This document shows positions 6,936-38,707 of a DNA stretch of 64,000 nt, in pieces. A program made the position numbers and the translations under genes. Within the stretch, counting starts at the first letter, position 1. Each line of letters starts with the position of its first letter. Below the pieces are notes generated by a model. It had not been told where the DNA came from. It saw nothing but the letters and a program-made list of their open reading frames with translations, and did not search any database. The DNA comes from Leucocoprinus leucothites. Its lineage: Eukaryota > Basidiomycota > Agaricomycetes > Agaricales > Agaricaceae. The stretch spans positions 1,488,001 through 1,552,000 of the forward strand of contig JAACJO010000009.1 of the NCBI GenBank assembly GCA_013368445.1, in the 5' to 3' direction.

Positions 6936-7493
6936 TGTTATGAGCTGGTCCTCTAGAACAGCTGAAGGTTCGGACTTAGTAATATTCTCATGAACTCTTA
7001 TCCACTTTTGCCTATTGGTTACATCAGTTCTATTGGTCTTTCGCCTTCGGATTTATTCTGACATCTTCCATGTTATTAATTCATACTGCCTTGTCGAAAT
7101 TTTCTGACAATCGTTTAATAGTAAATTTTATACCTTCTAGCCTTGTAAAATTTGCGGACTCCACTTTGATTATTTCTCTGTTTACTACTTTGCTTGTTTT
7201 CCTTATCCAATCCTATATTCCACATTGTATATAAGTAGCATGATTTTGTACTTGGATTCCTCAGTCTGATAATCAACTTAGCGATATGCTACTGTCCTCT
7301 GCTCTCTGTTTGTCCTCTGCTCTCTTATCTTGTCTGAAATCCGGGTCAAGCATCAGTAGTCAGGACAATACATAAGTTGAGGCCACAACCCACTCCTGCA
7401 TCCAACAACCAGCTCCTGCCTTACCTCTGTCCCACCTCTGTCCATCCAGTCCTAGACGTCGGCTTCCCACCTGTAGTGTTTGCGCGTTTAGCA
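6936..7493 (+). repeat. 5' LTR of G2
   Basis: 558 bp, equal in length to the 3' LTR. By hand count the two LTRs differ at roughly 35-40 sites, nearly all transitions and often as TG/CA pairs, which is the trace of a CpG that decayed on opposite strands in the two copies. The last bases are TAGCA here and TAACA in the 3' LTR. Confidence 0.92.
7228..7273 (+). promoter_or_regulatory. TATA box and predicted start of the G2 transcript
   Basis: TATATAA lies at 7228-7234. The 11-mer AGTCTGATAAT (7263-7273) lies 35 bases after the first T, where a fungal or metazoan TATA promoter would start. Its exact reverse complement forms the primer-binding site just after the LTR, which supports it as the RNA 5' end. 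Confidence 0.65.
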
Positions 7494-7495
7494 GT

Positions 7496-7506
7496 ATTAT
7501 CAGACT
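7496..7506 (+). other. Self-complementary primer-binding site of G2
   Basis: ATTATCAGACT starts two bases after the LTR and is the exact reverse complement of 7263-7273 in the R region. The first 11 nt of the RNA could fold back and prime minus-strand synthesis, as established for Tf1 of fission yeast. I saw no tRNA 3'-end complement there. Confidence 0.7.
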
Positions 7507-7540
7507 CAGATTCTACTGTCACACTCACACTTCTGTCATC

Positions 7541-9127
7541 ATGGTCAACACTCATACTATCAAGGGCAAGACCTCCACTGTTGTGCAACCAGAGCAGAAA
7601 CGCTCTCACACTCCTCCTCCTGTCCCAAGCTCTTCTTGTCTGACTGATAATAATTCTTGTATCAGTATCTGCACTTGTCATTCACGTCATCTTAATCCTA
7701 ATCTCCCAGAAACTCCTCGATCTGCTAGTTCTCCTCCACCGCCTCCTCGTCATTTTCGAAATATCCATCCTCCCAGAACTCCTGCCCCACCTGGTGGTCT
7801 GCCATCTGACAGAGATCCATCTGACCCCTTGGAACCAGGTGACTCTGATGGTCCAGACTACGCTGATAGTCAATCTATGGGTCACAATGGTGATGATGAA
7901 GACAATGAACCCGTCTATAACGGCTCTCCCAGTGGTCCTAGTGACCCCAATGACAATGATCCTGAAGACCCTTCCCACTCTTCCAATGATGAGCCTCTCC
8001 CTCCTCAACGGGCACCTCATCCCTGAGCTCCCTGACAGGATCCCAACAACAATCATCTAGCCAATGCCTTGGGTAGGCTCGCTGACAATCTTGATTACCA
8101 AGCGGCTGCACAAGCCAACCAGACTTGCGTCAATAAGGCTCACCTCCCAGACACTTTCAGCAGCTCTGACCCTGAAAAACTCAACACTTTCCTAATCCAA
8201 TGCTGTCTATATTTCTGAGCCAACCCCACTCAGTTCCAGCATGACAATTAGAAAGTCGACTTTGCCATGACCTACCTTGCTGGTGTTGCACTTGACTGGT
8301 TTGAGGTCAGCCTCAGTCAGGAAGAACAGGGTGTCTTTCATGACTGGTTTGATGATTGGAATGCATTTGTCTGCGAACTCCGTACGCATTTTGGCATTGC
8401 CAACCCAAAGGGAGAAGCAGCCGAGATGCTCAATACCCTTTGTATGAAACTGGGTGACAAGATTGCCACCTACAATGTAGAGTTCCTCAAATATGCCTCT
8501 CAACTCGGTTGGAACAATGAGGTCCTCTGTTACCATTACTACAAGGGACTTCCAAACTGCATCCAAGACCCTCTCAGTACCCACAAGCAGGGTAAACCCA
8601 CTACTTTCAAGGAAATGCATCACTTGGCTATTGTTTACAATGGACGCTACTGGGAGCGTGACCATGAACATGTTCATGCCTGTGCTGCAGAGAAGGATGC
8701 TGCTGATTCTCTCAGTTGGAAGCAGCCCAACAAGCCCTCTATGTCCAATACTTCCAACCTGAATCCGTCATGTGGCCAGTCTCAACCTGGCAACAACAAC
8801 AACAACAATCAAGGCAACAACAGTAACAGCAACAACAACAGCAACTGTAATCAGTCACAGGCCCCGAGTACCAAATCCAACACCCCTGCTCCATCCACAT
8901 CCAGTACCCAATGTCCTATGCCAAAATTCGACCTCTCTAGCAAACTCAGCCAAAATGGCAAACTGACACCTGAGGAGTGAAAACAATGCCTCAATGAAGA
9001 TCTCTGTCTATTCTGCAGTGGCAAAGGCCACAAGGTTGAGAATTGCCATAGGAAACAAAATTGGGCCAAGATCCGCAAGGTCAAAGCAGCTCTGCCCAAG
9101 GACTCTGAAAAGAGTCCAGAAAAATAG
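7541..9127 (+). pseudogene. G2 gag (capsid/nucleocapsid), broken
   Basis: The frame starts at ATG 7541 and runs to TAG 9125-9127, about 528 codons. The N-terminal third is Pro/Asp/Ser rich. It is followed by a Ty3-type capsid region (about 8110-8690, with motifs such as ALDWFE and a GLP box) and an Asn-rich stretch near 8790-8850. A CCHC zinc knuckle (CLFCSGKGHKVENC, near 9003) closes it. In-frame stops are TGA 8024, TGA 8033, TGA 8216, TAG 8249 and TGA 8978; most are explained by CGA to TGA. The protein would assemble the virus-like particle and bind the RNA. Pol continues in the -1 frame at the gag stop, next to a run of five A. Confidence 0.88.
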
Positions 9128-12100
9128 AGGGTGACCCTCAGGACTCTGCACAGACTGGGGGTCACATTGAGCTCATCTGTGCACCAGAGAGTATCCTCCG
9201 CCTCAATGTGTCCGCTCTTTCTGACCCAAATTCTCTTATCGCTTCCCTCACTTCTTCTCTTATTTGCTCATCCAATAATATTCAACGGATACCGTTTTGT
9301 GCTCTTGTCGATTCTGGCTTGACTCATTGCTTCATAGATTCTGATTTTGTCTGCACTCACTCTCTTCCAACCTCACCCTTACCTCCTATCAAGCTTCACC
9401 TATTTGATAGATCATCGAATAGTTATATTACTGAACTTGTGAATCTGCCTGTTACTTTATCTACTGGTGAATCTATGACTATTGACCTTTATGTCACTCA
9501 GCTTGATTCTTCCTGCTCTGTGGTACTAGAACACAACTGGCTCACCCGCTACAATCCATTGATTGACTGGGTTTTGAGCAGCATATCTTTCCAATTGCAT
9601 TTGCAGGATAATCTTGCCCCTTCTGCCCATGTCACATCCACTCCCATAGTGGCTCCTACATCGTCACCCACTCCTAGCCCAACGGCTGACACTCCTCCTC
9701 TGAATTCACCATCCTCTGGGACTTCTATGTCTACTCCTGGTATTGCAACAGCTCCTCACATTTCTATCATCAACACTGCTGCATACATTCGTGCTTCACA
9801 CCTTCTTGGTTCAGTAAACTTCCACCTCAATCTCAGCTTGCCTTCTGCTTCCGCCAATTCAGCTCAGGTTTCCGACAAGTCAATTGACCTTTCTAAAGTG
9901 CCCAATGAATATCATGAATTTGCTGATGTGTTCAGCAAAGCTCGTGCTGACAGCCTTGCACCCCATCACCCTTATGATCTCAAAATCAATATTGAAGAGA
10001 GTGCTCAACCTCCTATTGGCACCATTTATTCATTATCTCCATCCAAGCTTGAGTTGCTCCATGAATTCATTGACAAACACCTATCTATTGGATTTATCCA
10101 CCCCACTTCCTCACCTCACAGCACACCCATTCTCTTCATTCGGAAGAAAGACAGTTCATTATGACTTTGTGTCAATTTCTGTGGCCTTAATTGTATCACC
10201 AAGAAGGATTGCTATCCACTTCCACTCATTTCTGACTTACTCAACTCTCCTTGCAAAGCCTGCATTTATACCAAGATAGACCTTTGACATGCTTACCACC
10301 TCGTTCGGATTGCTGAAGGAGACGAATGGAAAATGGCTTTCAGGACCCAGTATGGATCCTTTGAATGGCTGGTTATGCCTTTTGGACTCACCAATGCACC
10401 TGCAGCTTTCCAGTGGTTCATGAACAACATCTTTTCCAACCTCCTTGATGTCTGCATCATGGTCTATCTCGACAACATCCTCATCTACTCTGACAACCTT
10501 GACACACACAAGAAACATGTTCGAGATGTCCTCAAGCAGCTCCACAAGCATGGCCTATATGCTAAAGTGGAAAAATGCGAGTTCCATTCCAAGTCTGTCG
10601 AATACCTTGGGTATATCCTCTCACCAGATGGTCTCGAAATGTTGGAAGACAAGATTAAAATCATCCAGGAGTGGCCTGAACCGAAGAAAGTCAAAGACAT
10701 TCAGTCTTTTCTAAGTTTCACCAATTTCTATTGATGCTTCATTTACAACTATTCTGATATCGTCGTCCCACTTACATGCCTCACCCAAAAAGCATCTAAG
10801 TGGAATTTCGACAAACAGTGTTGCGAAGCCTTTAACTCCCCCAAAGAAGTGTTCACTACTGCTCCTATCCTCACTCACTGGATACCCAATGCCCAAATCA
10901 TCATTGAGACTGATGCTTCTGATTATGTGCTAGCTGCCATCCTGTCCATTGTTGCAGACAACAACAAAGTCCACCCAATTGCATTCCATTCCCACACCTT
11001 CAACACAGCTGAGTTAAACTATGACACTCACGACAAAGAGCTCCTTGCTATCTTCAAGGCTTTCCGCACCTGGCAGCATTACCTTGAAGGAGCCTCACTC
11101 CCTATCAATGTTGTTACTGATCACAAGAACCTGGAATACTTCTGCACTATGAAGATCCTAACTCATTGACAGGCTCATTGGTCTGAGTTCATATCACAGT
11201 TCAACCTCATCATCCATTTCCGACCCGGCCAACTTGGAACCAAGCCTGATGCTCTCACTAGACGATGGGATGTCTACCCTAAAGGGGGGAATAATGGCTA
11301 TGCTTCAGTCAATCCTCATAATTACTGTCCTGTATTTTCGCATAAACAGTTATCAGCTTCAGTTCAAGCTACTTATTTTTCAACTCCTTCCCTTTGCGCT
11401 GCCACCATACTAGATCTCGAGAAACTTCATTCTGATATCCTTACTTCGCTTCCTCAAGACCTGATCACATCTACCCACATCACTCATCCTGAAGGCCGCT
11501 GGTTGGTCAATTCCACTAGTTTTCTTTGGCTCGATGACAGGATCTAGGTACCCGATGTCAACAATCTTCAACTCAGAGTTCTACAATACAAACATGATCA
11601 TGTCCTTTCTGGCCATTTCGGTCAGAACAAGACCCTTGAACTCATCCGATGTGAGTACACCTGACCTGACATCTGATCTCAGGTCAACGCTTTCTGTAAA
11701 TCCTGTGTTACCTGTATGCAATCCAAGTCTCAGCACCATAAGCCATACAGTAACCTCAAGCAACTCCCCATTCCTGAATGCCTGTGGAATTTGATTTCAA
11801 TGGACTTCATTGAGAAACTCCCTTCATCCTCTGGCTTTGACACTATCCTTGTTATTGTTGACCAACTCTCCAAACAGGCTGTATTCATTCTGACCCACAA
11901 CACTATCACTTCAGCAGAACTGGCACAGTTATTCATCATTCACGTATTCTCTAAGCATGGTATTCCTTCTCATGTCACTTCTGATCATGGTTCAGAGTTT
12001 GTCTCACACTTGTTCCATTCCCTTGGCATGGCTCTGGACATGCGCCTTCACTTCACATCCAGTTATCATCCTGAAGGTGACGGACAGATGGAACGAACTA

Positions 12101-12456
12101 ACCAAACGCTAGAGCAGTACCTTCGCATTTACTGCAACTATCAGCAGAACAACTGGTCTGACCTCCTCCTACTTGCAGAATTCACATACAACAACATGCC
12201 CAGTGCTACCACCGGAATTTCGCCCTTGTTCGCCAACAAGGGTTATCACCCTAACATTACAGTCCATCCTGAACACAATATTGCATTGGCTTGCACATGT
12301 GACTTCGCAGTCAACCTCGATGAATTACACACTACTCTCAAAGCTGAGATAGCCACTGCTCAAGAATGCTACCAATGATCCGCTGATGCACATCGGTTAC
12401 CAGCCCCGGAGTTCAAAGTTGGCCAGAAAGTTTTTGTGAAAGCTCAATTCTTCCAC
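9122..12456 (+). pseudogene. G2 pol, first part: protease, RT, RNase H, integrase
   Basis: The whole polyprotein is in one frame (1 mod 3), -1 relative to gag. The retropepsin has CALVDSGLTHCFID near 9300. The RT core runs from about 10020 to 10730, and its catalytic box reads [10 protein letters not shown] (near 10465), so the second Asp is Asn. RNase H begins with ETDASDYVLAA near 10905. The integrase has an HHCC finger near 11585-11725 and an intact DDE triad: SMDFIEKLP near 11800, TSDHGSEF near 11980, and the Glu in GQMERTNQ near 12085. In-frame stops include TGA at 10162, 10285-10290, 10732, 11167 and 12376. G3 interrupts the coding sequence at 12457; it resumes at 21085. This copy cannot make active enzyme. 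Confidence 0.9.
11279..11294 (+). other. Internal purine tract resembling the G2 3' PPT
   Basis: AAAGGGGGGAATA at 11281-11293 nearly repeats the 3' polypurine tract at 23162-23175. It lies between RNase H and integrase, as central PPTs do in some retroelements. It also encodes ordinary pol residues, so it may be coincidence. Confidence 0.35.
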
Positions 12457-13120
12457 TGTTATGTATATTGATTATATCTAGCATTTGTTCCATCTACAAT
12501 ACGAAGTCGATATTAGCTTTACTTAAGTAATATCGCAATTATGTTTTCCTCTTATTTGTTCTTGTATTTTCTCATTTGTTTTGACTCATTTACTTTGTCT
12601 GGTTACGACTCGTTATGACTTGTTTGGTTTTGTTTATATTTTGATGACATGTGATTGTTAAATATAGCTGTGCTATATTTGGACTTACCTTGTGATCGAT
12701 CAGATGATCAAAGAAGAACTTCTTTAGAAGAACTTCTAAAGCTTCTTTGACAGATCGCGTCTTATATAGTTTAATTAGTGTTAAGGAAGCTGTATGCTTC
12801 TCTTCTTTGATTAGAAGCCCTTAGCCCTAGTTAATATTAGATACCAACTTGTATCATATATAAGTCGTCGACATCTACCAAGGAGAAGCATCGTTTCTAC
12901 TTGGTTAGGTGGAGACTCAATACGAGCCTTTATCTATACAAAGTTGAATTGAACTTAAGCTTTAAAGATCTCAATTACTAAAGTCTTAACTCTATAATCG
13001 CTGTATTATAACTCTGACTTAGTAAACGACTTTGTCGCTTACCAAGAAGGAGTCCCCTTTGATAAGATCAACTCGATACTTATCGCACCAGCTTAGGACT
13101 GGGCCAGCATCACTATAACA
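12457..13120 (+). repeat. 5' LTR of G3
   Basis: 664 bp with perfect TGTTAT...ATAACA ends. A diverged copy in the opposite orientation lies at 25561-26819. Confidence 0.9.
12857..12902 (+). promoter_or_regulatory. TATA box and predicted start of the G3 transcript
   Basis: TATATAA at 12857-12863 is followed 33 bases later by ATCGTTTCTACTT (12890-12902). The reverse complement of that 13-mer lies two bases after the LTR, which marks it as the likely RNA 5' end. Confidence 0.7.
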
Positions 13121-13122
13121 TT

Positions 13123-13135
13123 AAGTAGAAACGAT
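13123..13135 (+). other. Self-complementary primer-binding site of G3
   Basis: AAGTAGAAACGAT is the exact reverse complement of 12890-12902. The spacing (two bases after the LTR) equals that of G2, but the sequence is unrelated to the G2 site, so each element matches only its own transcript start. The stretch 13136-13687 is untranslated leader without a supported ORF. Confidence 0.75.
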
Positions 13136-14629
13136 CCTTCTCTGTTAGCACAGAGCCATTACTTTGCCCAGTAACCCAACAATGTTGCAAACACTGTCGA
13201 TTTGGGTTATCGCAGTTATAGCACAAGCTGTCCCAAAACTATTGTACATAACAATGAAGAGAGGGTCAACACACATTGCCAACTAGTGGATTAGTTGAGG
13301 ATCACTCTTATTGATCTGAGTGAATACCCACGCTCTTAAAACATTTGGAGGCTTGTGAGAGCTAAGGTCATTGTACCTGAATCTCAAATAAGATACCAGA
13401 CCCGAGGGTAGATACTCAGAAGGGAGAAAATTGCCAGAAGATTAGGCATATCTCTGAAGAATACCAGACCCGAGAGTAAATACTCAGAAGACAGTCTATC
13501 TGTTGAAAGTCTTAAGAGACTATAAATACACAGTCCTAGTGACTATAAAAGTGAGTCCATAGCGACTATAAACTAATTTTCCAACCACGGCAGAATCAAA
13601 CTGCAAGTGTGATAATTGTCTTAAGGACAATTTACCATTTAAGACCATACCAGGTGTCTCTATAGGCACCCATAAAAATAGTCCACAACGGACCCAGCAG
13701 AGTTTGCAAGACAGGTCAAAATCTTCGCAAGAAGAGAATTCCCAGAGGAATCCTACAGTACCTACTACAGTGAAACCCAAAGAACAAGGTTCTACAGAAG
13801 TAAAGGATCAGGAAGATTCTACTACATCAAAGAACACAAAGGGAAAGTTGCCTATGTCCCAATCAAGAAAGAACAAGAAGGAGTCCTTGAAGCCGAATAC
13901 GCAGCACTTGGTCACAAGCAACTTCATAGAACTGTCAAACAACAAATCGAAAAAGGAGCTGGTCTTGAAGAACTTTGAGACATTACCCAAGAACAGTACA
14001 CTGAAGAAGCAAGAAGAAGACAAACTCCGTTTCCAGAAACCCCTGCAGAATCTAGCAGGACCATCGAACCAGAACCAGTCCTTGACATTACCCCAAGAAC
14101 TGAAGACACCTCACAAGACAATCATTCAGAGCCCAGAGTTAACACTCCAAGTTCAGAAGAATCTGAATTTGATGAAGAAGACAAAGAAGAAGACAAAGAA
14201 GGAACAGATAGTGGAGAAAGAAGCCAACAGGAATCTGAAGGAAATCGAACAGAAGAGGAAGCAGAAGCACTTGCAAGGGCAATCGACAATCTCAAACTTA
14301 AATCCCCAGAGAAACCCAGACTCGATAGACCCCCTTCTTACTCCTCGAGCCCAGCTTTTGGACATAGCCCAAGGTTCCTCAGTCCCATTACAAACCCTAT
14401 CCCCTTTAGCTTTACCAATTCCCCCACTGGTATTGCCAGTACCAGTACCTTACCAACAACCAATCCCAACATTACTACAGCCAGTACCACCATCACTGTA
14501 CCTGCTAACACCCAAACAAAAGGGAAAGCAAAGGCAGCTGTCACCAACACAGGAGGTTCTTCAAATTGAAGAAGCCCCACACCGCCACTACCAAATCCAC
14601 AAGGAGGACCACCAAGTCCTGGAGGTAAT

Positions 14630-14692
14630 CCGCCTGGAGGACCAGGAGGACCAGGAGGACCAGGAGGACCAGGAGGACCAGGAGGAGGACCA
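14630..14692 (+). repeat. 9-bp tandem repeat coding Gly-Gly-Pro in G3 gag
   Basis: About six direct copies of AGGAGGACC, in the gag frame giving a collagen-like Gly-Gly-Pro stretch between the linker and the capsid domain. Confidence 0.8.
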
Positions 14693-15912
14693 CCAAATCC
14701 TAATCCAAACCCCCTGCCAAACCCAATGGCACAACCTCAAGCAGGATTCCAGCTTAAGTACCCAAAGACCAACAGGTTTGATGGCAACCCAAGCTATTAC
14801 AGACCATGGATGGCCGAAGTCGAACTCTACTTCGACTCATATGGTGTCACAGATGACCAATCAAGAATCAACTACACCCTTGGATTACTCGATGGAGCTG
14901 CCAAGTTATGGCAACAGGATTACAGACTTAGTCGAGCAGCTGCAGCTACCCAAGCAGGATACACCCCACACACATTCGATGAGTTCAAGGATGCGCTCGA
15001 ACAGTCATTTGCTCCAACACAACAGAGCTTTGAGGCTGAAAGAGAGCTCTGCTATTATAGACAATGAAACAAATACATCGAAGAATACATTGCCAATTTT
15101 TCCATCCTTGCCTCATGTGCAGGACTTACTGACAGCACTTCTCTCCGATCCTACTTCGCCGAAGGACTCGACAACAACGTCAGATTCGAAGCAATCCGAG
15201 CTGACCCCCAAACCCTCACAGAATGGAAAACTGCTGCAAGGCAGGCATACAAAGTTGTCCAAGAGCAAAGGAGATACCACATTGGAAATTCTAATCCAGG
15301 ATCTTCAAACAGATCAAGAAAGACCAAAAAGAATAGTAGACAACATGGATCCCAACCACGATATAATGATGTCTATAGTCAACCCCTATCTAGACCCAGA
15401 CGATCCGAGTGGGACATGGATATTGACAGAATATCAAGAGGAATATACCGATTATCAATCGAAGATGATTGGGAAGCAGACGACGGAGGTATATACGAAC
15501 TTGGCACAGAGGATGATGATAATCCTGAAGAAGAGGAGAGTGAAGGAGAAGACATCAACCAAATGTACAATGAAGGACCAAGCAACACAGACAGAGATGT
15601 CTATGGTTCACTATACTCCCACATCATCAATAATGTTCTCACCGACAAACAGAGAATTGCACTCAAGAGAGGAGAATGCTTCTTCTGCCACAAGAAAGGA
15701 CATTTTGCTAAATCTTGTCCAGCAAGGAAGGTTTGGTTTAAGTCAAGAGGAAACACAAACATGGGATCGAAGCAGACGCAGAAGTCCCAGTCCAAACTGA
15801 AACAAGGGAATCGTAGACCTTTCAAGCCTAAAAGGAAAGATCCAGATGCCATGGTTTACAAAATAGAACAAGCTAGCGATGAAGACGACCCGTTTCAAGA
15901 ATATTCAAATGA

Positions 15913-15922
15913 AAATTTTTGA
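15913..15922 (+). promoter_or_regulatory. Putative -1 frameshift site at the G3 gag stop
   Basis: In the gag frame the heptamer A AAT TTT (15913-15919) fits the X XXY YYZ slippery pattern and is followed at once by TGA. The pol frame opens at 15913 (a stop lies at 15910-15912) and is exactly -1, so slippage would fuse Gag to Pol. Confidence 0.6.
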
Positions 15923-18900
15923 GTACTCATGAAGATCAGATAGACATCATCGATCTTCAATCAAACAAAGGATTAACAGTACATGTACCCATCTTGCTCC
16001 ATACAACTAGAGCAAAACACAATCTACAAGCACTACTCGACTCAGGAGCTAGTGGAGAATTTATTGACCCACAACTAGTCGATACCTACAACTTGCCAAA
16101 ATTCAAGATGAAAAAGGCAATCAAAATCCGTAACGCCGATGGAACACAAAACCTATCAGGAAGTTGTACTCACTATACAAAATTAAAAATAGAAGTGAAC
16201 AACAAAATTATGATGATCTCTCCAAGAATAGTCAAACTAGGATCAAACCAACTATTCTTAGGAATCACATGGTTAAAGAGATTCAATCCCGATGTTGATT
16301 GGCAGAAACTGTCATTACGTTGGCAAGATGAAAATTCTCATACAATCAAATTAACCAAAGCGAAAACTGATTCCATCAATCAGTTGTATTATGAAATCAA
16401 TGTGAAATCTAACACATCACAACAACTTCACAACTTGGCTACTAAACCTAAAAGGGAATCAGACCCTGTGAAAGCCATACCAAAGAAATTTCATCAGTTT
16501 CTCAAAGTCTTCAACAAAGATGAATCTGAGAAATTACCACCCAGACGTCCTTGGGATCACAAAATCGAGACTATACCTGAATTTGAACCCAAACGAATGC
16601 CAGTTTATCACCTGACACCTCAGGAAAGAACTGAACTTGACAAGTTTATTTCCGAAAATCTACGAAAAGGATATATTCGGAAATCCAAATCACCAATGGC
16701 CTCTTCTTTCTTCTTTGTAGGAAAGAAAGGAGGAGACTTACGTCCATGCCAAGATTATCGATTCCTTAACAAGAATATGATAAAGAATGCTCACCCAATA
16801 CCAAGCATATCACAAATCATGGATAAACTTAAAGGATCTAATTGGTTCACCAAGTTAGATGTCCGACTAGGATATAATAATGTCCGAATCCAAGAAGGAC
16901 ATGAATGGAAAGCGGCATTCCGCACTCCAAATGGGTTATATGAACCCACAGTCATGTTCTTTGGAATGACAAATTCCCCTGCTACTTTCCAATCCATGAT
17001 GGATCACATCTTTAAAGACCTTACTGAGAAAGGCAGAGTTATTATTTACATGGATGACATCCTTATCCATGTGAAAACAAAGGAACAACTCGAAAGACTT
17101 ACTAAACAAGTCCTGAAGATTCTACAACAGAATGAATTGTATTTAAAGACTGAGAAATGCGAATTCGAGAAGCAACGCCTAGAGTACCTCGGAGCTATCA
17201 TAACTCCTGACTCTATCGAGATGGACCCAGTTAAACTTAAGGGAATACAGGATTGGCCTGTACCCAAGTCTGTCTGAAATATCAGACAATTCATTGGATT
17301 TTGCAACTTCTATCGCAAATTCATTCACAACTTCTCAGCTATCGCACAACCACTTAATGCATTACTTCATAAAACAACGAAATTCGAATGGAACCTAGAA
17401 GCACAGAAAAGCTTTGAGAAGCTCAAGGAACAATTCCTTAAGCAACCTATACTTCAAATAGTTGATGAATTAAAACCATTCGAAATTGAATGTGATGCTT
17501 CCACATTTGCTACTGGTGCAGTACTACTCCAAAGAGATTCAAATGGAGATAAGCACCCTGTGGCTTATTATTCACAAACCCTCAACCCTGCAGAACGAAA
17601 CTATCATGTGTCTGACCAAGAATTCCTTGCTATTATTAGAGCACTAAAGGAATGGCGACACTACCTCAAAGAATCAGCACACCCTATTATCATATGGTCT
17701 GATCATGAGAATCTCACCAGATGGCGAGAACCACAACAATTAAATCGAAGACAAGCCAGATGGATGCTATACATGACACGCTTCCATTACTCCATAAAGT
17801 ACTTGGCTGGAAATAAAAACACTCTTGCTGACGCATTGAGTAGAAGACCAGACCTAGTCCCAGAAGGGAAAGATAACGAAGATCTTGTTGTGATACCATC
17901 AGAAAAATTCATTAACTTCCTTTCTGAGGAAATTAAAGAAGAAATTAAAAATAAACAAGAGAAGATCAACCCATCTGAAAGATTCACAGAAGATGATGGC
18001 ATTTATAAATATCAGGGAAGACATGTGATACCTGAAGATGCCGAACTAAAAAGAAGACTTCTACAATGTGTACATGATCACGAGACATCAGGACACCCAG
18101 GAACAGCCAAACATTCCATAAACTATCTAAGTTAGTTTACTGGCCTGGAATGAACACATATGTTCAGAACTACGTGAAGGATGCCCTATTTGTTAACAGT
18201 ACAAAATCAACCATCATCCGGTTAAACCACCAATGCAACCGATTAAAGGCCCTTCTTCCACAAGGCCCTTTTCCCAAATATCCATGGATCTTATCACAGA
18301 TCTACCACCTGACAATGGATATGATTGTATATTGTCCATAGTGGACCATGGACTTATGAAAGGGATAATCCTAACTCCAACAAAGAAGACAGTAAATGCT
18401 GATGGCATTGCTGAAATTCTTATTGACAAAGTATTTTCGAAATACGGAACACCCAATAAAATAATCTCAGATCGAGATCCACGATTTGCTGCTAAATCAA
18501 TGCAAAACTATACGAAAAACTCAATATTACCCCAGCCCTGTCTACAGCATATCATCCACAGACAGATGGAACTACTGAAAGGTACAACCAAGAAATCGAG
18601 TTCTATTTAGCAGTTTACACATCACAAAACCCAACCATATGGAAACGAGCACTTCCAATGATTGAATTCATACACAATACGAAACCCCATTCTGGAAGAA
18701 AACACTCACCATACAAATTAATCCTAGGATATAACCCACAAGCGTTTATCTCAGACATAGAGACAGACACACCTTCTATCAATGAGAAGTCTCTATTCTT
18801 GGAACAAGTCCGAGAAGCAGCTTTAGAGGCACATGAACGAACACGTCTCATGATGGCTCAAAGAAAGAACCAACCATGGACACCATTCAAAGTAGGAGAC

Positions 18901-19326
18901 CGAGTTTGGTTAGATAACCGAAATCTCCCTTTACCCTATGCTTCTAAGAAGCTTAATCAAAGAAGAGAAGGTCCATTTACTATTATTAGAAAGACCTCTC
19001 CAGTCAACTACGAACTCAAACTACCACAAAAATGGAAGATTCACAACAAGTTCCACACCTCACTTCTCATGCCAGTAACTGAGAATGACGTTTATAGTAA
19101 ACACAACCCTAAACCACCACCTGTTCTAGTCTCAGGAGAAGAACAATATGAAGTCAAAGCAGTCCTAAATCATAGAACCCACAGACTACGTTCTGGAACA
19201 AAAATAGAATACCTAATTCGTTGGAAAGGATACAGACCTACTGAAGACTCATGGGAACCAGAGAAAAATCTTGAAAATTCAAAAGAAATAATTCAAGAGT
19301 ATAAAAACCAGCACAATCTCTCTTAA
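15919..19326 (+). pseudogene. G3 pol: protease, RT, RNase H, integrase, chromodomain
   Basis: Frame 1 mod 3 carries a retropepsin (ALLDSGASGEFID near 16035) and an RT with an intact YMDDILIH box near 17050. RNase H begins with ECDASTFATGAVL near 17490 and ends with NTLADALSRR near 17820. The integrase has its HHCC finger near 18075-18200 and the DDE residues in SMDLITDLP, SDRDPRF and GTTERYNQ (near 18290, 18470, 18575). A C-terminal chromodomain with YLIRWKGYRPTEDSWEPE (near 19215) follows. Damage: TGA 17275 (Arg expected), small indels near 18130 and 18178, TAA where Gln is expected near 18195, and a shift near 18500. The second half is otherwise open to 19326. The chromodomain would direct integration to marked chromatin in this family. 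Confidence 0.92.
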
Positions 19327-19341
19327 CATTCCCCAGCTTCA

Positions 19342-20696
19342 ATGACTACTTCAGAAGTCAGTGAACAACCAACAGTACCAGTCTTTGGAACTATTATCTG
19401 CAAATCACCCTCACCTAATACCCCTCCTACTACACTGACCAACACCATCGACGATGCGAACAAGGTCAAAGAAAGTCCTGGTCTTGCCTCATCGCAAGAA
19501 CAAGGCACCAAATCCCCTGCCGGAGATAGTGCAGGTGGAGACACTAGCAGTGAAAACTCTTCACCCTATAAAGAGAATGCCACCCTACAATGAGCATTTC
19601 TTCGAGAACAGACAGCCGTTGACTTTCTGTCCGCCTACAGCAGCAATCCTAGACTCACTTCATATGTCTACAACATCGGGAATTGGATTGATGCTCTCAC
19701 TTCTGCAAGAAGTGAATACAAGCGTCTCCAGGAAGAAATGGACTTCCATCTTAGTAACCTGGCACGCCATATCCCTAGGGGTCCCTATACTCAGAACATC
19801 GTCCAACGCATCCAATGCACCGACCCGGACAGAGATTACCTCACTACACTCAAGTGTCAACAAGCTCCAGAGTGACGTGCACAGAATTCTGAGCGCGCCT
19901 CAGCGGATGATGAGGGAAAAACTTCCCCACCTAGCGTCAAACCTCAACAACGTCATGATGTGGCTACACACAATGCCATATTACCAAGTACACCCCCTCC
20001 AACGCCTACTAACAAGCCTCCTCGAAATACCAATCGAGACACGACTCGCCCTGGACGTACTAGTCGAACCTGCAACATATGTCATGGAATGGGTCATATC
20101 AAGACGCTTTGCCTGGGATATCATTGCACCTGGTGCAACAATTTCACCCCCGGCCATTTCACCAAGTATTGTTCCCAAAATCCTTATAAAGGAATTGCTC
20201 GACAGGATCTACCCCCAGTCGCCCTGGCAGCACTTTCAATTACCGAAGGAGTCGATGCCGCCAAGGCTCTTGCTCTGCAGTCCATCTCCGGATCTGCCAG
20301 AATACAGCCCCGACAGTCCGGTGTACCAACCGGCAATCACAGTGCCCCCATCACCGATGCCATCGGACTTCGATCCGAATGACATAATCCAACATCCACA
20401 GCCGTTAACACCACCTCCCTTGGCCCAACCTACAACCCTACTTTTACTGTACGCTGCGACGAGGTCATAAACCCGCACCACAAGGAAGACAATATGGTCA
20501 TCTCCAGACCTCAGTCTGTTCCTCCCATCCAAACCATCGAGGACGCAGTCCGAGTGGACGTCCCCATCACGGTCGAACTTCTCACATCTATGAAGGAGAA
20601 CACCCCCTTACACCCCCATACGAAGATGGCAATTACAAATCTCATTACAATGATGAAGCCAACTTCAACATAGACGGTGAAGGTAATTTAAATTAG
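19342..20696 (+). pseudogene. G3 third ORF with double zinc knuckle
   Basis: An extra reading frame follows pol by 15 bases and ends before the polypurine tract. From ATG 19342 (frame 1) it has a Ser/Thr-rich start, a helical middle (near 19660-19760), and two Cys/His motifs: CNICHGMGHIKTLC (C-x2-C-x4-H-x4-C) and CTWCNNFTPGHFTKYC (C-x2-C-x6-H-x4-C), near 20070-20170. Stops at 19591, near 19873 and at 20380 are all TGA where Arg fits. After about 20260 the protein-like frame seems to move to frame 2 and then frame 0. The last part is acidic, aromatic and Asn-rich and ends at TAG 20694-20696, so indels are likely. I know no Ty3 function for it. By position it matches accessory or env-like ORFs, but no signal peptide or membrane segment is visible. 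Confidence 0.6.
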
Positions 20697-20732
20697 TAAC
20701 TTAGATAGTTACTAAGATGTGGACATCTTAGC

Positions 20733-20746
20733 TAGGAAAGGGATAA
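20733..20746 (+). other. Polypurine tract of G3
   Basis: TAGGAAAGGGATAA directly precedes the 3' LTR and would prime plus-strand synthesis. Confidence 0.7.
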
Positions 20747-21084
20747 TGTTATGTATATTGATTATATCTAGCATTTGTTCCATCTACAATACGAAGTTGA
20801 TATTAGCTTTACTTAAGTAATATCGCAATTATGTTTTCCTCTTATTTGTTCTTGTATTTTCTCATTTGTTTTGACTCATTTACTTTGTCTGGTTACGACT
20901 CGTTATGACTTGTTTGGTTTTGTTTATATTTTGATGACATGTGATTGTTAAATATAGCTGTGCTATATTTGGACTTACCTTGTGATCGATCAGATGATCA
21001 AAGAAGAACTTCTTTAGAAGAACTTCTAAAGCTTCTTTGACAGATCGCGTCTTATATAGTTTAATTAGTGTTAAGGAAGCTGTA
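20747..21084 (+). repeat. Truncated 3' LTR of G3
   Basis: Matches 12457-12794 with a single C/T difference, then changes abruptly into G2 integrase coding sequence. About 326 bp of LTR are missing. Confidence 0.9.
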
Positions 21085-21477
21085 AAATGTCTCGGTCCAT
21101 ACGAAATTATCACTCAACCTGGCTCTCACTCGTTCACCCTTCGCCTTCCAGATTCCATGTGCGCTGTTTATCCTGTCTTTCATGTTTCCATGCTTGAGCT
21201 GACCACACCCAATCCATTTTCCAATGGCACAGAACTGGCTCCTGTTCCCATTGTCATTGATGACAAACCAGAGTATGAGATTGCCCGCATCGTAGACTCG
21301 AAGATTGATTGATGTCGCATATGCAAACTCCTTTACAAGGTCATCTGGCTGGGATATGAAGATACTGACAAAGAATCTTCATGGTTACCTGCTACCAAAC
21401 TTATGCACACAACTGAACTTCTTTCTGATTTCCATTCTGCTTATCCTGACAAGCCTGGTCCGCTTCCATTACCCTAG
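21085..21477 (+). pseudogene. G2 pol, last part: integrase C-terminus and chromodomain
   Basis: The frame continues the G2 integrase with CLGPYEIITQPG and FHVSMLEL, typical of the integrase C-terminal region, then a chromodomain-like segment with KVIWLGYEDTDKESSWLP near 21340-21395. A TGA at 21310-21312 stands where Arg fits. The natural stop is TAG 21475-21477. About a dozen codons between 12456 and 21085 were lost with the G3 right end. From 21478 to 21788 I see no gene; this is G2 spacer between the convergent pol and antisense genes. Confidence 0.85.
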
Positions 21478-21788
21478 TTCTTTTTCTGCCACACATTTTC
21501 ATTATCCATCTTCTGATATCGGCTCTCTCGCTTTCTTCTTATTTGGACTTGAACAATTTTTCATACTTTCTTACTTACTGTTCTGGTTTTACTTACACTC
21601 AATAGCCTCATCTCCCTTGGACCCTTTTTCTTACTTCGGATGTTCTATTCACACCTCTAATGCCCAAGAAAAACCGAATTCATTCTCCACAAAGTCCAAC
21701 ACCAGAAGTACAAAATAGGACATGTGACAAAAATACAATTGAGATCAAGAAGCTGAGCTGCATAGGAGGAGCAGGAGGGACAAGATGG

Positions 21789-23046
21789 CTACTTACTCCC
21801 ATGTTCACCTTCATCCTCTCCCTCACCTTCCTCCTCTCCAACCTCCCCCTCATTCCCAGACCCAGCATCCGATGTTTCCGGCACAGTTTTCTTCTTAGCG
21901 GCCAATTTGGCATCCAATTCCACCCATGCCTTTTCATGTGCCTCATCATCCATCACCTTGTCATCAAGGACAAGCCAGTTGTAAAACTCCTTGAAGTCCT
22001 TAGCCAGCCCATCCACAACCTTGGTCTGAGACTGGATACTCAACACCATTGCCAAGTGCTGAGTTCCCAACTTGGCCCAGATCCCCTTCAGCTCCTTGAG
22101 AATGGCCAATTGGATGGCCCGGGTCTTCCTCTGCTCAACGATGAGCTCATATGTTTGCTCATGAGGCTGTTTGTCAGCCTCTGTTGGAACCGCACACTTC
22201 TGTTTTGAAGTGTGGCATGGCTTGCACATATACTTGCCGCTGTGAATGTTGTCAGTTGATCAGCTGACCCAAGGGATCAGGAGTTACTCACATGTCACTT
22301 TGCTTGGTGCAGTTCTTGCCCAGATGCAAGCACTGCCTGCACTCATTGTCTCTGCCCATCTTTATCTTCCCTCCCTTAGCATCATAGTTTCCACGTTTTC
22401 GGAGGGCAGCAGTCTCGTCTCTTCCATCTCCGGCCAAACCTGAGCCAGGCCTCCACAATGGATCATTGTCTTGATCATCCAGCTCCATAAGTTGATACTT
22501 GGAGGGACCAGCAGCCACACTCTGTTGAGTCAACCTAGCCATCTCAGCCAGCCTACTTGTTGGTTTCACACAAGGTTTTCGAACCCCATTTCCTGCCTTT
22601 GCATTCTCTGTCATTTTCTTCTTCTTTGCTGGACTCTCCACTATCTCCACTTCTACCTCCATTGCTGTTCTCTTCCCTTTCCCCTTCTCTTTCTCCTGTC
22701 TTTCCTTTTCCTTTTTCTCGGCCTCCAACTGAATCTGTTCCACCAGTTCGGCCTCTTCCTTCTCCTTTTGTAACTGCTCCGCTTCCTCAGCCTCCTTCCT
22801 CTTCTTCTTAGCTTCCTCCGCCTCTTTCCACTTCTTCTCTGCCATCTTCCTCCACAACTCTTCCTTTCTCTTCCGTTGTTCCTCCTCCTTATGTTTCTTT
22901 TTCTCAGCCTCCTCAGCCTCTCGCTTCTTCTGTTCTTCTTCTTTGGCTGCCTTCCGGTTGTCCTCTTCTTCCAGTTTGCACAACTTGTTCTCCAAGTCGC
23001 TATCACTCAATGGGTTGGATCCATGGGTCACGGAGCTGGGTGTCAT
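21789..23046 (-). CDS. Antisense two-exon gene in G2 with Zn2Cys6-like cluster
   Basis: On the strand opposite to gag-pol, between pol and the 3' LTR. Exon 1 is 23046-22292 and exon 2 is 22239-21789, about 401 codons. The N-terminal ~170 residues form a highly charged Glu/Lys/Arg coiled coil. Then come a basic PAKKKK stretch, a Cys-rich region and an acidic C-terminus ending at TAG. Six cysteines are spaced C-x2-C-x6-C-x10-C-x2-C-x6-C, which meets the GAL4-type binuclear cluster rule; the intron falls between the third and fourth cysteine, so splicing builds the cluster. Established: such clusters bind DNA in fungal regulators. Inference: a nuclear, DNA-binding accessory protein of the retrotransposon. 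There is no in-frame stop, in contrast to G2 gag-pol. The start context is ACC-ATG, about 130 bp from the 3' LTR. Alternative: a captured host exon pair. Confidence 0.65.
22240..22291 (-). other. Predicted 52-nt intron in the antisense gene
   Basis: Donor GTGAGT, acceptor CACAG, and CTGAC branch-like sequence 13 nt before the acceptor AG. Removal keeps the frame (2 + 1 bases across the junction), while reading through meets TGA at once. Confidence 0.7.
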
Positions 23047-23161
23047 GGTAGTGTTAAGGGATTAAGTTGTGAGAAAGCTTAATTTTTTCCTCAGAGCGGA
23101 ATTTATACGGAGTTTGAATTGGTTCCCATGATCAAGTCACATGGCTTTGAGGGCTTAGCCC

Positions 23162-23175
23162 TAAGGGGGGAATAC
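23162..23175 (+). other. Polypurine tract of G2
   Basis: TAAGGGGGGAATAC lies immediately before the 3' LTR. Confidence 0.75.
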
Positions 23176-23733
23176 TGTCACAAGCTGGTCCTCTAGAATA
23201 GCTGAAGGTTCGGACTTAGTAATATTCTCATGAACTCTTATCTGCTTTCACCTATCAGTTACATTAGTTCTATCAGTATTTTGCCTTCAGATTTATTCTG
23301 ACATCTTCCATGTTATTAATTCATACTGCCTTGTCGAAATTTTCTGACAATCGTTTAATAGTAAATTTTATACCTTCTAGCCTTGTAAAATTTGCGGACT
23401 CCACTTTGATTATTTCTCTGTTTACTACTTTGCTTGTTTTCCTTATCCAATCCTATATTCCACATTGTATATAAGTAGCATGATTTTGTACTTGGATTCC
23501 TCAGTCTGATAATCAACTTAGCGATATGCTACTATCCTCTGCTCTCTGTTCGTCCTCTGCTCTCTTATCTTGTCTGAAATCTGGGTCAAGTGTCAGTAGT
23601 CAGGACAACACATAAGTTGAGGCTACGATCCGCTCCCACATCCAACGACCAGCTCCTGCCTTACCTCTGTCCCACCTCTGTCCATCCAGTCCTAGATGTC
23701 AGCTTCCCACCCATAGTGTTTGTGTGTTTAACA
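23176..23733 (+). repeat. 3' LTR of G2
   Basis: 558 bp, TGTCAC...TTTAACA, followed by the GGAGA target duplication at 23734-23738 and then by pogo coding sequence. A related solo LTR in minus orientation lies at 27202-27763. Confidence 0.93.
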
Positions 23734-23866
23734 GGAGACCAAGCTGTTCCTTCTTGTCTTTCTCAAGTTGATGTTTGTATAATGCCACAGCCTTGGTCAT
23801 ACATTCCTTGTACAGTTCATGATCAATTTGAGATTTTTTGGTCAAGGAGAGAGCTTTGTGAGGCAT
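23734..23866 (-). pseudogene. pogo transposase, N-terminal part
   Basis: The minus strand starts with ATG at 23866-23864 (MPHKALSLTKKS) and stays open for about 44 codons up to the G2 insertion point. Joined to 6935 and below with one GGAGA removed, the frame continues into the next part of the transposase without a shift. The part after the junction resembles the DNA-binding domain that precedes the DDE domain in this superfamily. The upstream region contains no further coding sequence that I can recognise, and I could not locate the pogo terminal repeat. Confidence 0.75.
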
Positions 23867-34252: not shown

Positions 34253-35237
34253 TGTCAGATATGCTCTGGACAGTCTACAAGTATTTGTGATTGATTTGTT
34301 GATGTGTGAAGTTAGAGTTGATGCAGAGCTTGCTTAGTCAGTTGTAGATCACCTGACTGGATGTTCAACTCTCCTGTGGACGCTTTCTTGACTCTCAGTC
34401 ATTTACAGTTGTCCACAGGTGAGTACAAGTCTCTATCTTGTTACTCTTAGTCATTTACAGTTGTCCACAGATTTCTGTGTGAGCTGTGAGCTCTCTGGGC
34501 GATTTCTCTGGTTTCTAGGACCTCCTACATGTCCCCTGTGCATCACCTTCTAACAGGTTATGGGCCCTGGCCTCTAGAAGCCTCAGACAATGACTTTTGC
34601 TCCATTTCTTTCTCAACTGTCTTCCTATTCTCCTATCCGCCGTTTTCACGTTTTCTCCTTTGTTTTCGCGTCGCTCCGGTCACCTCCGCGCACACCCGTC
34701 GATCTCGCGTGTCTCCATGACTTCACCAAGTTTCGCTGCGTTCCGACCATTTCCCATTCCACTATCCCACTTCCATTCCTAATCACTCTATCCTAATCCT
34801 AATATTCCTCTGCTCCTTCCATGCCAACCATTGCTCCGTTCCACTCTGAACTTCACCAGTCCGTCGATCCCACTGTTTGCCACATATACCCCTTGTTACA
34901 TGACCACCAACCCTTTCCTCATCGCTATACACTGCATTTCAGCTTCCTAGTCTGTCCAGATGTCTTCCTCTGGCCCCAACTTTGACAAGCTCAATGCCAC
35001 CAACTACTCTACCTGGGCAGGCGAGATGCAGGCATGGCTCCAGGCCTCTGGCCTGTGGAGACTGGTCAAGGGTGAACTCCTCAAGCCTGAGATCCCTTCC
35101 CCTACTATCCAAGCCACCTTTGACTCTAGGGAGGCCTGGAATGTGAAGGCTGACAAGGCTGCTGGCTGGCTTTATCTCATGGTGGAACCGGACCAGAGGG
35201 TTCACTTCACTGATAGGGATGATCCTCATGTAAAGTA
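34253..35237 (+). mobile_element. copia left arm: LTR, primer site, start of gag
   Basis: LTR 34253-34555 (303 bp), primer site at 34556, leader, then the start of a copia gag. 34253-35225 is repeated in inverted orientation at 37735-38707 with the same length and, as far as I compared, one mismatch. Twelve bases (35226-35237) separate it from LINE A1. Confidence 0.9.
34960..35225 (+). pseudogene. copia gag, N-terminal fragment
   Basis: Starts MSSSGPNFDKLNATNYSTWA, the start typical of copia gag (LNATNYSTW is the usual box). The match with the inverted copy stops after 89 codons at 35225. It is identical in translation to the first part of the inverted copy at 38000-37735. No stop is present, but the protein is cut short by the rearrangement. 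Confidence 0.85.
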
Positions 35238-37527: not shown

Positions 37528-38000
37528 GCGAGCTCCTCATCCAGGCCTTTGAGGTCAAAGTCATCAGGGCGAAGATTTTGGATTTGCTTCATGCTCTCCT
37601 CCACCCTGTTGATGAGGGACTGCAGGGACTCATCCTCAGCCTTCCTGATGTTGAAGAGGTCATCATAGGCATTAAAATGAGTGCTAGGACGCCTCTGGAG
37701 GTGCACAGCTTGCAAATCTGTCCACATCTTGACAGGATCATCCCTATCAGTGAAGTGAACCCTCTGGTCCGGTTCCACCATGAGATAAAGCCAGCCAGCA
37801 GCCTTGTCAGCCTTCACATTCCAGGCCTCCCTAGAGTCAAAGGTGGCTTGGATAGTAGGGGAAGGGATCTCAGGCTTGAGGAGTTCACCCTTGACCAGTC
37901 TCCACAGGCCAGAGGCCTGGAGCCATGCCTGCATCTCGCCTGCCCAGGTAGAGTAGTTGGTGGCATTGAGCTTGTCAAAGTTGGGGCCAGAGGAAGACAT
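37528..38000 (-). pseudogene. copia gag, longer N-terminal fragment
   Basis: The minus-strand frame starts at 38000 with the same MSSSGPNFDK start and runs about 157 codons before meeting the LINE A1 poly-A (read as poly-Phe). The part beyond the left arm contains the usual copia gag features: a Trp-containing segment (KMWTDLQAVH), an SLQSLINRVEE helix and a following helical region. No stop is present. The gag zinc knuckle and pol are missing. Confidence 0.85.
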
Positions 38001-38707
38001 CTGGACAGACTAGGAAGCTGAAATGCAGTGTATAGCGATGAGGAAAGGGTTGGTGGTCATGTAACAAGGGGTATATGTGGCAAACAGTGGGATCGACGGA
38101 CTGGTGAAGTTCAGAGTGGAACGGAGCAATGGTTGGCATGGAAGGAGCAGAGGAATATTAGGATTAGGATAGAGTGATTAGGAATGGAAGTGGGATAGTG
38201 GAATGGGAAATGGTCGGAACGCAGCGAAACTTGGTGAAGTCATGGAGACACGCGAGATCGACGGGTGTGCGCGGAGGTGACCGGAGCGACGCGAAAACAA
38301 AGGAGAAAACGTGAAAACGGCGGATAGGAGAATAGGAAGACAGTTGAGAAAGAAATGGAGCAAAAGTCATTGTCTGAGGCTTCTAGAGGCCAGGGCCCAT
38401 AACCTGTTAGAAGGTGATGCACAGGGGACATGTAGGAGGTCCTAGAAACCAGAGAAATCGCCCAGAGAGCTCACAGCTCACACAGAAATCTGTGGACAAC
38501 TGTAAATGACTAAGAGTAACAAGATAGAGACTTGTACTCACCTGTGGACAACTGTAAATGACTGAGAGTCAAGAAAGCGTCCACAGGAGAGTTGAACATC
38601 CAGTCAGGTGATCTACAACTGACTAAGCAAGCTCTGCATCAACTCTAACTTCACACATCAACAAATCAATCACAAATACTTGTAGACTGTCCAGAGCACA
38701 TCTGACA
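37528..38707 (-). mobile_element. copia right arm: LTR, primer site, gag start
   Basis: Minus orientation: LTR 38707-38405 (303 bp), primer site at 38404, gag from 38000 down to the LINE A1 tail at 37528. The outer 973 bp mirror 34253-35225. The inner 207 bp (37528-37734) extend the gag further than the left arm does. Confidence 0.9.

Follow-up and report, generated by a model that had tools for sequence, protein, structure and literature searches.

A spliced antisense gene with a zinc-cluster-like cysteine pattern in a chromovirus clade of Leucocoprinus leucothites

On the strand opposite to a Ty3-type retrotransposon of the basidiomycete Leucocoprinus leucothites, two open exons together read as a protein with a zinc-cluster-like arrangement of cysteines, which raises the question of whether a gene is truly present there and, if so, what its product does for the element that carries it. 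The locus lies in a 64,000-nucleotide (nt) stretch of contig JAACJO010000009.1 (assembly GCA_013368445.1, positions 1,488,001 to 1,552,000), hereafter the window, within a chromovirus that is itself interrupted by a younger insertion and that we refer to as the outer chromovirus. Our analyses identify the antisense feature as a genuine spliced protein gene that is borne by the chromovirus and is under selection.

A spliced antisense gene under selection

A preliminary description of the locus, made from the DNA alone, had claimed a two-exon antisense gene of ~401 residues with a 52-nt GT-AG intron, placed between pol and the 3' long terminal repeat (LTR), in which the intron splits a cluster of six cysteines spaced 2-6-10-2-6. 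All of this was reproduced: the coordinates, open frame, spacing, and split cluster from the window sequence and the placement on the opposite strand from the anatomy of the element (Table 1). The spliced frame comprises 401 codons plus a stop codon, contains no internal stops, and follows the end of the outer chromovirus pol while preceding its 3' LTR. Its cluster consists of Cys 236, 239, 246, 257, 260, and 267 (CX2CX6C-X10-CX2CX6C). Two L. leucothites gene models annotated as "hypothetical protein," P0001 and P0002, have the same splice and the same spliced product.

The 47-Mb genome, which contains the window, holds at least 41 matches to the antisense gene, made up of the window copy, a further 39 near-full-length copies, and a fragment of 37 nt; this number is a lower bound, since the DNA search scored 40 of 66 candidates. 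Recurrence in other insertions, which the preliminary description had proposed to check, is thus seen in at least 39 further near-full-length copies. When the 40 near-full-length copies (including the window copy but leaving out the fragment) were aligned, the intron was 52 nt long and ended in CAG in every one, with a splice donor of GTGAGT in 29 copies and ATGAGT in 11. Eleven of the 40 are intact, in that they have an ATG, GT-AG splice sites, and a frame open to the stop; because several are near-identical relatives, they do not amount to 11 independent observations. Counted at the copy level, 17 of 26 exon insertions and deletions (indels) are in frame and 9 are frameshifts, with related copies sharing events that are therefore not independent.

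Retrotransposition would remove an intron that is spliced out of the genomic RNA itself. The antisense intron would persist because genomic RNA does not contain it as an intron, and its presence in all 40 copies fits expression from the antisense strand, as reasoned from the life cycle. Coding on the sense strand was ruled out as the source of conservation, since no copy has a stop-free plus-strand frame over either exon and, in diverged pairs, it is the third position of the antisense codons that varies. A chance open reading frame was ruled out by the copy alignment, by the ratio of nonsynonymous to synonymous substitution rates (dN/dS), and by simulation against neutrality.

For these rate estimates, we applied the Nei-Gojobori method to 15 copies picked by eye out of the 40 (105 pairs), all belonging to the P0002-like type A. 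The dN/dS ratio was 0.06 to 0.24 in pairs with a dS of >0.3 and 0.17 to 1.9 in pairs with a dS of <0.3; in the pair L012/L020, for example, dN was 0.050 and dS was 0.706. As CpG transitions abound in old copies, the neutral null placed each pair's changes randomly within the same base and CpG classes (1000 simulations, 13 pairs). The number of amino-acid-changing differences fell under all 1000 simulations in eight pairs (119 to 207 differences) and inside the simulated range in the other five, which are close pairs (19 to 91 differences). L012/L020 differ by 46 amino-acid-changing and 117 silent changes, versus null means of 110 and 49. Cluster cysteines 1 to 6 are retained in 36, 39, 38, 40, 39, and 36 of the 40 copies, respectively, and the window protein's noncluster cysteines are poorly retained (position 23 in 4 of 39 copies and position 159 in 14 of 40). 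With diverged pairs constrained and close pairs showing ratios of up to 1.9, the pattern is that of a gene selected during element activity and free to decay once inserted. The dN/dS check that the preliminary description had put forward therefore gave a non-neutral result in the more diverged pairs, whereas the pattern between close copies was neutral.

The four older gene pairs L012/L001, L012/L006, L002/L003, and L032/L040 have transitions at 31 to 39% of CpG sites and changes at 2 to 10% of non-CpG C/G sites. Elements L049 and L046 likewise show an excess of CpG transitions, which is smaller in the pair L043/L048 (8%) and absent between the young elements L045 and L043, with a difference of 3.0% at CpG versus 3.9% elsewhere. 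Judged from these mutations, the elements look cytosine-methylated after insertion.

Occurrence across the clade and exchange between lineages

An anatomy survey of ten 10-kb stretches around gene copies found the order LTR, gag-pol, tail, antisense gene, spacer, second LTR in eight, one of which (L052) has an LTR-like insertion within gag-pol; L049 and L050 are interrupted or have no LTR inside the 10-kb stretch. L045 is a recently inserted element that carries an intact antisense gene (copy L020): its LTRs are 99.8% identical, GACCA target duplications flank it, and its gag (558 amino acids [aa]) and 1292-aa pol frame are open. Pfam identifies protease, reverse transcriptase (RT), RNase H, integrase, and a C-terminal chromodomain in L045 pol, and on this Ty3-type pol order and the chromodomain of L045, a whole relative of the window element, the family is a chromovirus. 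A separate nested mobile element as the carrier of the gene is unsupported, as the gene lies at the typical distance from RT and adjoins the spacer and polypurine tract, a judgment by position made with no search for end repeats of its own.

To define the clade, the RT of L045 was used as a query against the genome, in which 118 of 490 candidates were scored; 100 matches were 70 to 100% identical and, after a gap, 18 were 44 to 45% identical. The 100 closer matches were taken as the clade, and a gene was counted when it lay on the opposite strand, downstream, and within 6.5 kb. With type A alone, 39 of the 100 RT matches had such a gene, and for 19 of the 60 P0002-like rows there was no RT near enough to be paired. 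Types B and C were found by reading the expected site in L057, L059, and L058, and the genome was then searched with both; five distant rows were reassigned from type A to type B before the coordinates were paired. An antisense gene was then present downstream of 88 of the 100 RT matches (35 type A, 23 type B, and 30 type C), versus 6 for a same-strand and 1 for an upstream opposite-strand control placement. The same antisense gene position across many insertions, which the preliminary description had also proposed to look for, accordingly extends to most of the clade, and by its position, its presence in most copies, and, in type A, its coding conservation the gene fits an antisense LTR-retrotransposon accessory gene (aORF-3R). 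By hand count, 75 of the 88 genes lie 2.2 to 3.5 kb from RT and 13 lie outside that range, some of which may be part of neighboring elements or of elements that have been interrupted. The 12 that appear to lack the gene include the window's own element, whose RT-gene distance is widened by the nested insertion. The type totals of 55, 25, and 47 count matched rows, not copies, and some rows are fragments belonging to a single copy.

The comparison of types draws on two intact type B copies and one type C copy. The intact type B genes in L057 and L059 are ~49% identical to type A, whose 52-nt intron they share in position and length (the alignment of A with B spans 135 residues at 51%, E = 1e-46); the damaged type B genes in L054 and L055 retain the six cysteines, with a stop inside the cluster in L054. 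The likeness of type C to types A and B is confined to the cluster; it aligned with type A over that region only, with the six cysteines in register (BLASTP E = 0.017), and a profile comparison of the two gave a probability of 29% (E = 6e-4 for a single comparison). Common descent of the A and C cluster domains is likely on this evidence, if not proven, and convergence is possible. In type C, the exon break falls after the cluster, given that in more than 30 of 98 rows the match to exon 1 stops at residue 278.

The antisense gene and gag-pol appear to have separate histories. Compared in 300-nt segments, L043 and L045 are 1 to 5% apart over most of gag-pol and 8 to 23% apart over the antisense gene. 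Trees built from gag-pol and from the gene for eight elements disagree, in that fitting the gene data to the gag-pol tree costs 260 log-likelihood units and fitting gag-pol to the gene tree costs 54 (the approximately unbiased test in this comparison had too few replicates according to the program's warning). Elements whose RT is 92 to 94% like that of L045 can carry A or B. Because the trees conflict and similar elements carry different types, recombination between lineages is the simplest reading, and faster evolution of the antisense gene may contribute to the divergence.

The cysteine cluster, the spacer, and possible function

The Zn2Cys6 spacing rule is CX2CX6CX5-12CX2CX6-8C, and the spacing in types A, B, and C (CX2CX6C-X8/10-CX2CX6C) satisfies it. 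The Pfam Zn2Cys6 model, PF00172, whose cut-off is 21 bits, scored 8.1 to 13.2 bits with types A and B and was not listed for type C in the same search. The Zn2Cys6 assignment of the preliminary description thus stands as to spacing and as to retention of the six cysteines (36 to 40 of 40 copies each) but falls short of the Pfam threshold. A PDB sequence search with P0002 gave eight weak matches (best E = 0.005), none of them to a zinc-cluster protein. Relative to Gal4-type factors, the likeness consists of the cysteine spacing and, in types A and B, of a basic stretch and a presumed coiled coil. In contrast, the lysine-rich half of the cluster comes second here but first in Gal4, a long stretch rich in lysine, glutamate, and arginine (K/E/R-rich) precedes the cluster in types A and B, and the gene belongs to a retrotransposon rather than to the host.

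Sequence conservation extends into the spacer upstream of the gene. A TATAAAT occurs within 150 nt upstream in 37 of the 40 copies, at 61 nt before the ATG in the six that were inspected, and CCAAT occurs within the same distance in 39. The palindrome is found in the form AGGGCTGAGCCCT in 34 of the 40 copies, with a different center base in the window copy. TATA and palindrome are also present in the type B elements L057, L059, and L054. The TATA and CCAAT boxes suggest that the antisense gene has its own promoter in types A and B.

We favor, with moderate confidence, the view that this is an antisense accessory gene of the chromovirus, with its own TATA promoter, whose protein tunes its own element family. 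The most likely mechanism, modeled on proposals for other antisense retroelement proteins, would begin with transcription from the TATA promoter in the ~130-nt spacer just inside the 3' LTR, followed by a single splicing event that would yield a K/E/R-rich, probably coiled-coil protein with the six-cysteine cluster; genomic RNA would be made from the other strand, in which the antisense intron would survive retrotransposition. The protein would dimerize, bind nucleic acid via the cluster, and tune the transcription or chromatin state of its own family via the LTR or spacer. We infer expression, zinc binding, DNA binding, nuclear action, and element regulation from the sequence.

Several observations weigh against this view. 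Because the PF00172 scores are under the cut-off, membership in the Gal4 family is unproven. Selection was measured on type A genes, and the nine frameshift indels also count against it, though they are expected of decaying copies. Protein searches with types A and C found relatives only among L. leucothites models, apart from one metagenome protein that is 99% identical to type C across 74% of its length; as these searches require shared five-residue words, absence from other fungi is weak evidence. No TATA was found upstream of the type C gene in L058. Conservation of the spacer, which also contains the polypurine tract, is ambiguous: it need not mean an antisense promoter and may partly serve reverse transcription. 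CGG triplets were considered as Gal4-like sites in the L045 LTR, which has 12 CGG and 14 CCG versus simulated means of 7.5 (standard deviation of 2.6 for CGG) and 8.4, an excess too weak to be convincing.

Alternatives differ mainly in what the protein would act on. It could be an anti-silencing factor that attaches to DNA of its own family and opposes cytosine methylation by the host, an idea similar to that for VANC of plant VANDAL elements. The contrast between CpG sites (31 to 39%) and other C/G sites (2 to 10%) in the four older gene pairs and the lack of a CpG excess in L045/L043 agree with this idea, which would also account for the fast, family-specific divergence by which similar gag-pol regions carry strongly different antisense genes; yet methylation is itself deduced from mutations and a link from protein to methylation lacks direct support, so that we regard this alternative as rather unlikely. 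A targeting or tethering factor that acts with the pol chromodomain at integration would make use of a chromodomain that is present, and the cluster and coiled coil could bridge DNA and integrase, but antisense encoding would be unnecessary for such a role, which we consider improbable. Still less probable is a nucleocapsid-like protein or particle cofactor: a basic protein of ~400 aa with a cysteine cluster would suit it, but the cluster spacing differs from that of a CCHC knuckle and the antisense layout fits a regulatory protein better than a stoichiometric structural one.

The two remaining alternatives deny the protein a role of its own. Convergent transcription with pol would follow from the layout, so that antisense RNA alone might matter, through double-stranded RNA or interference, with the protein incidental; this is very improbable, as strong amino-acid constraint and conserved cysteines largely refute it and the in-frame majority of exon indels (17 of 26, in related copies) also argues against it. 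Least probable of all is a recently captured host gene carried as a neutral passenger. Relatives elsewhere are not known, which would allow such an origin, but the gene is under selection and accompanies 88 of the 100 RT matches of the clade.

Beyond the favored view of an accessory gene that tunes its own family, we raise more tentatively the possibility that the antisense position is a slot for exchangeable, fast-diverging zinc-cluster proteins (A, B, and C) that would act as family-specific DNA-binding regulators or anti-silencing factors and be swapped among lineages. If true, fungi would have in such recombination-swapped cassettes a source of new zinc-cluster proteins that is carried by transposons.

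Layout of the window and relation to known antisense genes

The coordinates of the antisense gene, its spacer, and the outer chromovirus are given in Table 1. Between pol and the 3' LTR of the nested younger element lies a sense open reading frame of 338 aa (19454 to 20470, plus strand), which on visual inspection has Cys/His knuckle-like motifs and which lacks a Pfam match at 0.01. From 28000 to 64000, on the right, the window is a mosaic of repeated stretches in up to seven copies with open reading frames of 268 to 351 aa; the six of these that were searched had no Pfam match at 0.01. This part includes an inverted repeat (34253 to 35226 and 37734 to 38707) with 974-nt arms that are 100% complementary and 2507 nt apart, suggestive of either a very recent event or a DNA element whose inverted ends are long.

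Table 1. Features of the antisense gene and the outer chromovirus in the window
Feature	Position	Strand	Remarks
5' LTR, outer chromovirus	6936..7494	+	From LTR comparison
gag-pol part upstream of nested insertion	7495..12456	+	87-91% identical to ten stretches elsewhere in the genome
Nested younger Ty3-type element	12457..21084	+	Its own LTR repeats are 99.7% identical
3' end of outer pol (integrase C terminus and chromodomain region)	21085..21478	+	Chromodomain shown in relative L045
Exon 2 of antisense gene	21789..22239	-	451 nt; second cluster half, conserved C-terminal region, acidic tail, stop
Intron of antisense gene	22240..22291	-	52 nt, GT-AG (GTGAGT...CACAG); between third and fourth cluster cysteines
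Exon 1 of antisense gene	22292..23046	-	755 nt; N terminus, long K/E/R-rich presumed coiled coil, basic stretch, first cluster half
TATAAAT	23101..23107	-	Candidate core promoter, 61 nt before start codon
CCAAT box	23118..23122	-	Upstream of TATA; putative function
Palindrome AGGGCTNAGCCCT	23150..23162	.	Adjoins polypurine tract; candidate operator or part of polypurine tract signal
Polypurine tract AAGGGGGGAA, outer element	23163..23172	+	From sequence
3' LTR, outer chromovirus	23176..23735	+	94% identical to 5' LTR

HBZ of human T-cell leukemia virus type 1 (HTLV-1) is a basic leucine zipper (bZIP) protein that initiates in the 3' LTR. Like the product described here, HBZ and HTLV-2 APH-2 are antisense-encoded retroelement proteins, and the excerpted source reports a nuclear location for them (PMC11963269). 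Antisense LTR-retrotransposon accessory genes are already known as a kind: excerpts of PMC7264820 and PMC11963269 describe genes at this place in Grande, RIRE2, Retand, PvRetro13, and Boty of Botrytis and Sclerotinia, with an own upstream promoter and a nuclear product for Grande gene23 and predicted DNA binding for TRP28 of Retand. The plant genes (Grande gene23, RIRE2, and Retand TRP28) share the antisense position between pol and the 3' LTR but differ in host, Retand is a non-chromovirus, and a Zn2Cys6-like cluster is not mentioned for them in those excerpts (PMC7264820, PMC11963269). The TRP28 model (PF04195, Transposase_28) had no match to types A, B, or C up to an E value of 10.

The closest fungal counterpart by description, rather than by sequence, is brtn of Boty in Botrytis cinerea, an additional antisense gene in a chromodomain element, albeit of an ascomycete, in the portions available of PMC7264820, PMC8365987, PMC4227169, and PMC5987419. 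Overlap between the two genes is possible; no Botrytis proteins were among the matches of the protein searches with types A and C. An antisense zinc-cluster gene in a basidiomycete retrotransposon was not found in the literature covered, outside of which most subscription papers lie, nor in the excerpts of PMC12810828 and PMC12477816, and the word "antisense" is absent from the main text of PMC2864245. As far as this literature shows, four things are new: a basidiomycete as host, conservation of the intron, a zinc-cluster-like pattern, and the presence of three alternative proteins in one clade.

These results mean that some proteins that fungal annotations call "hypothetical," P0001 and P0002 among them, are encoded by retrotransposon genes. 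Antisense LTR-retrotransposon genes have been noted for years without a known function. Since a single genome here supplies dozens of copies, three types, a shared cluster pattern, codon-level selection, and a persistent intron, their function becomes directly testable.
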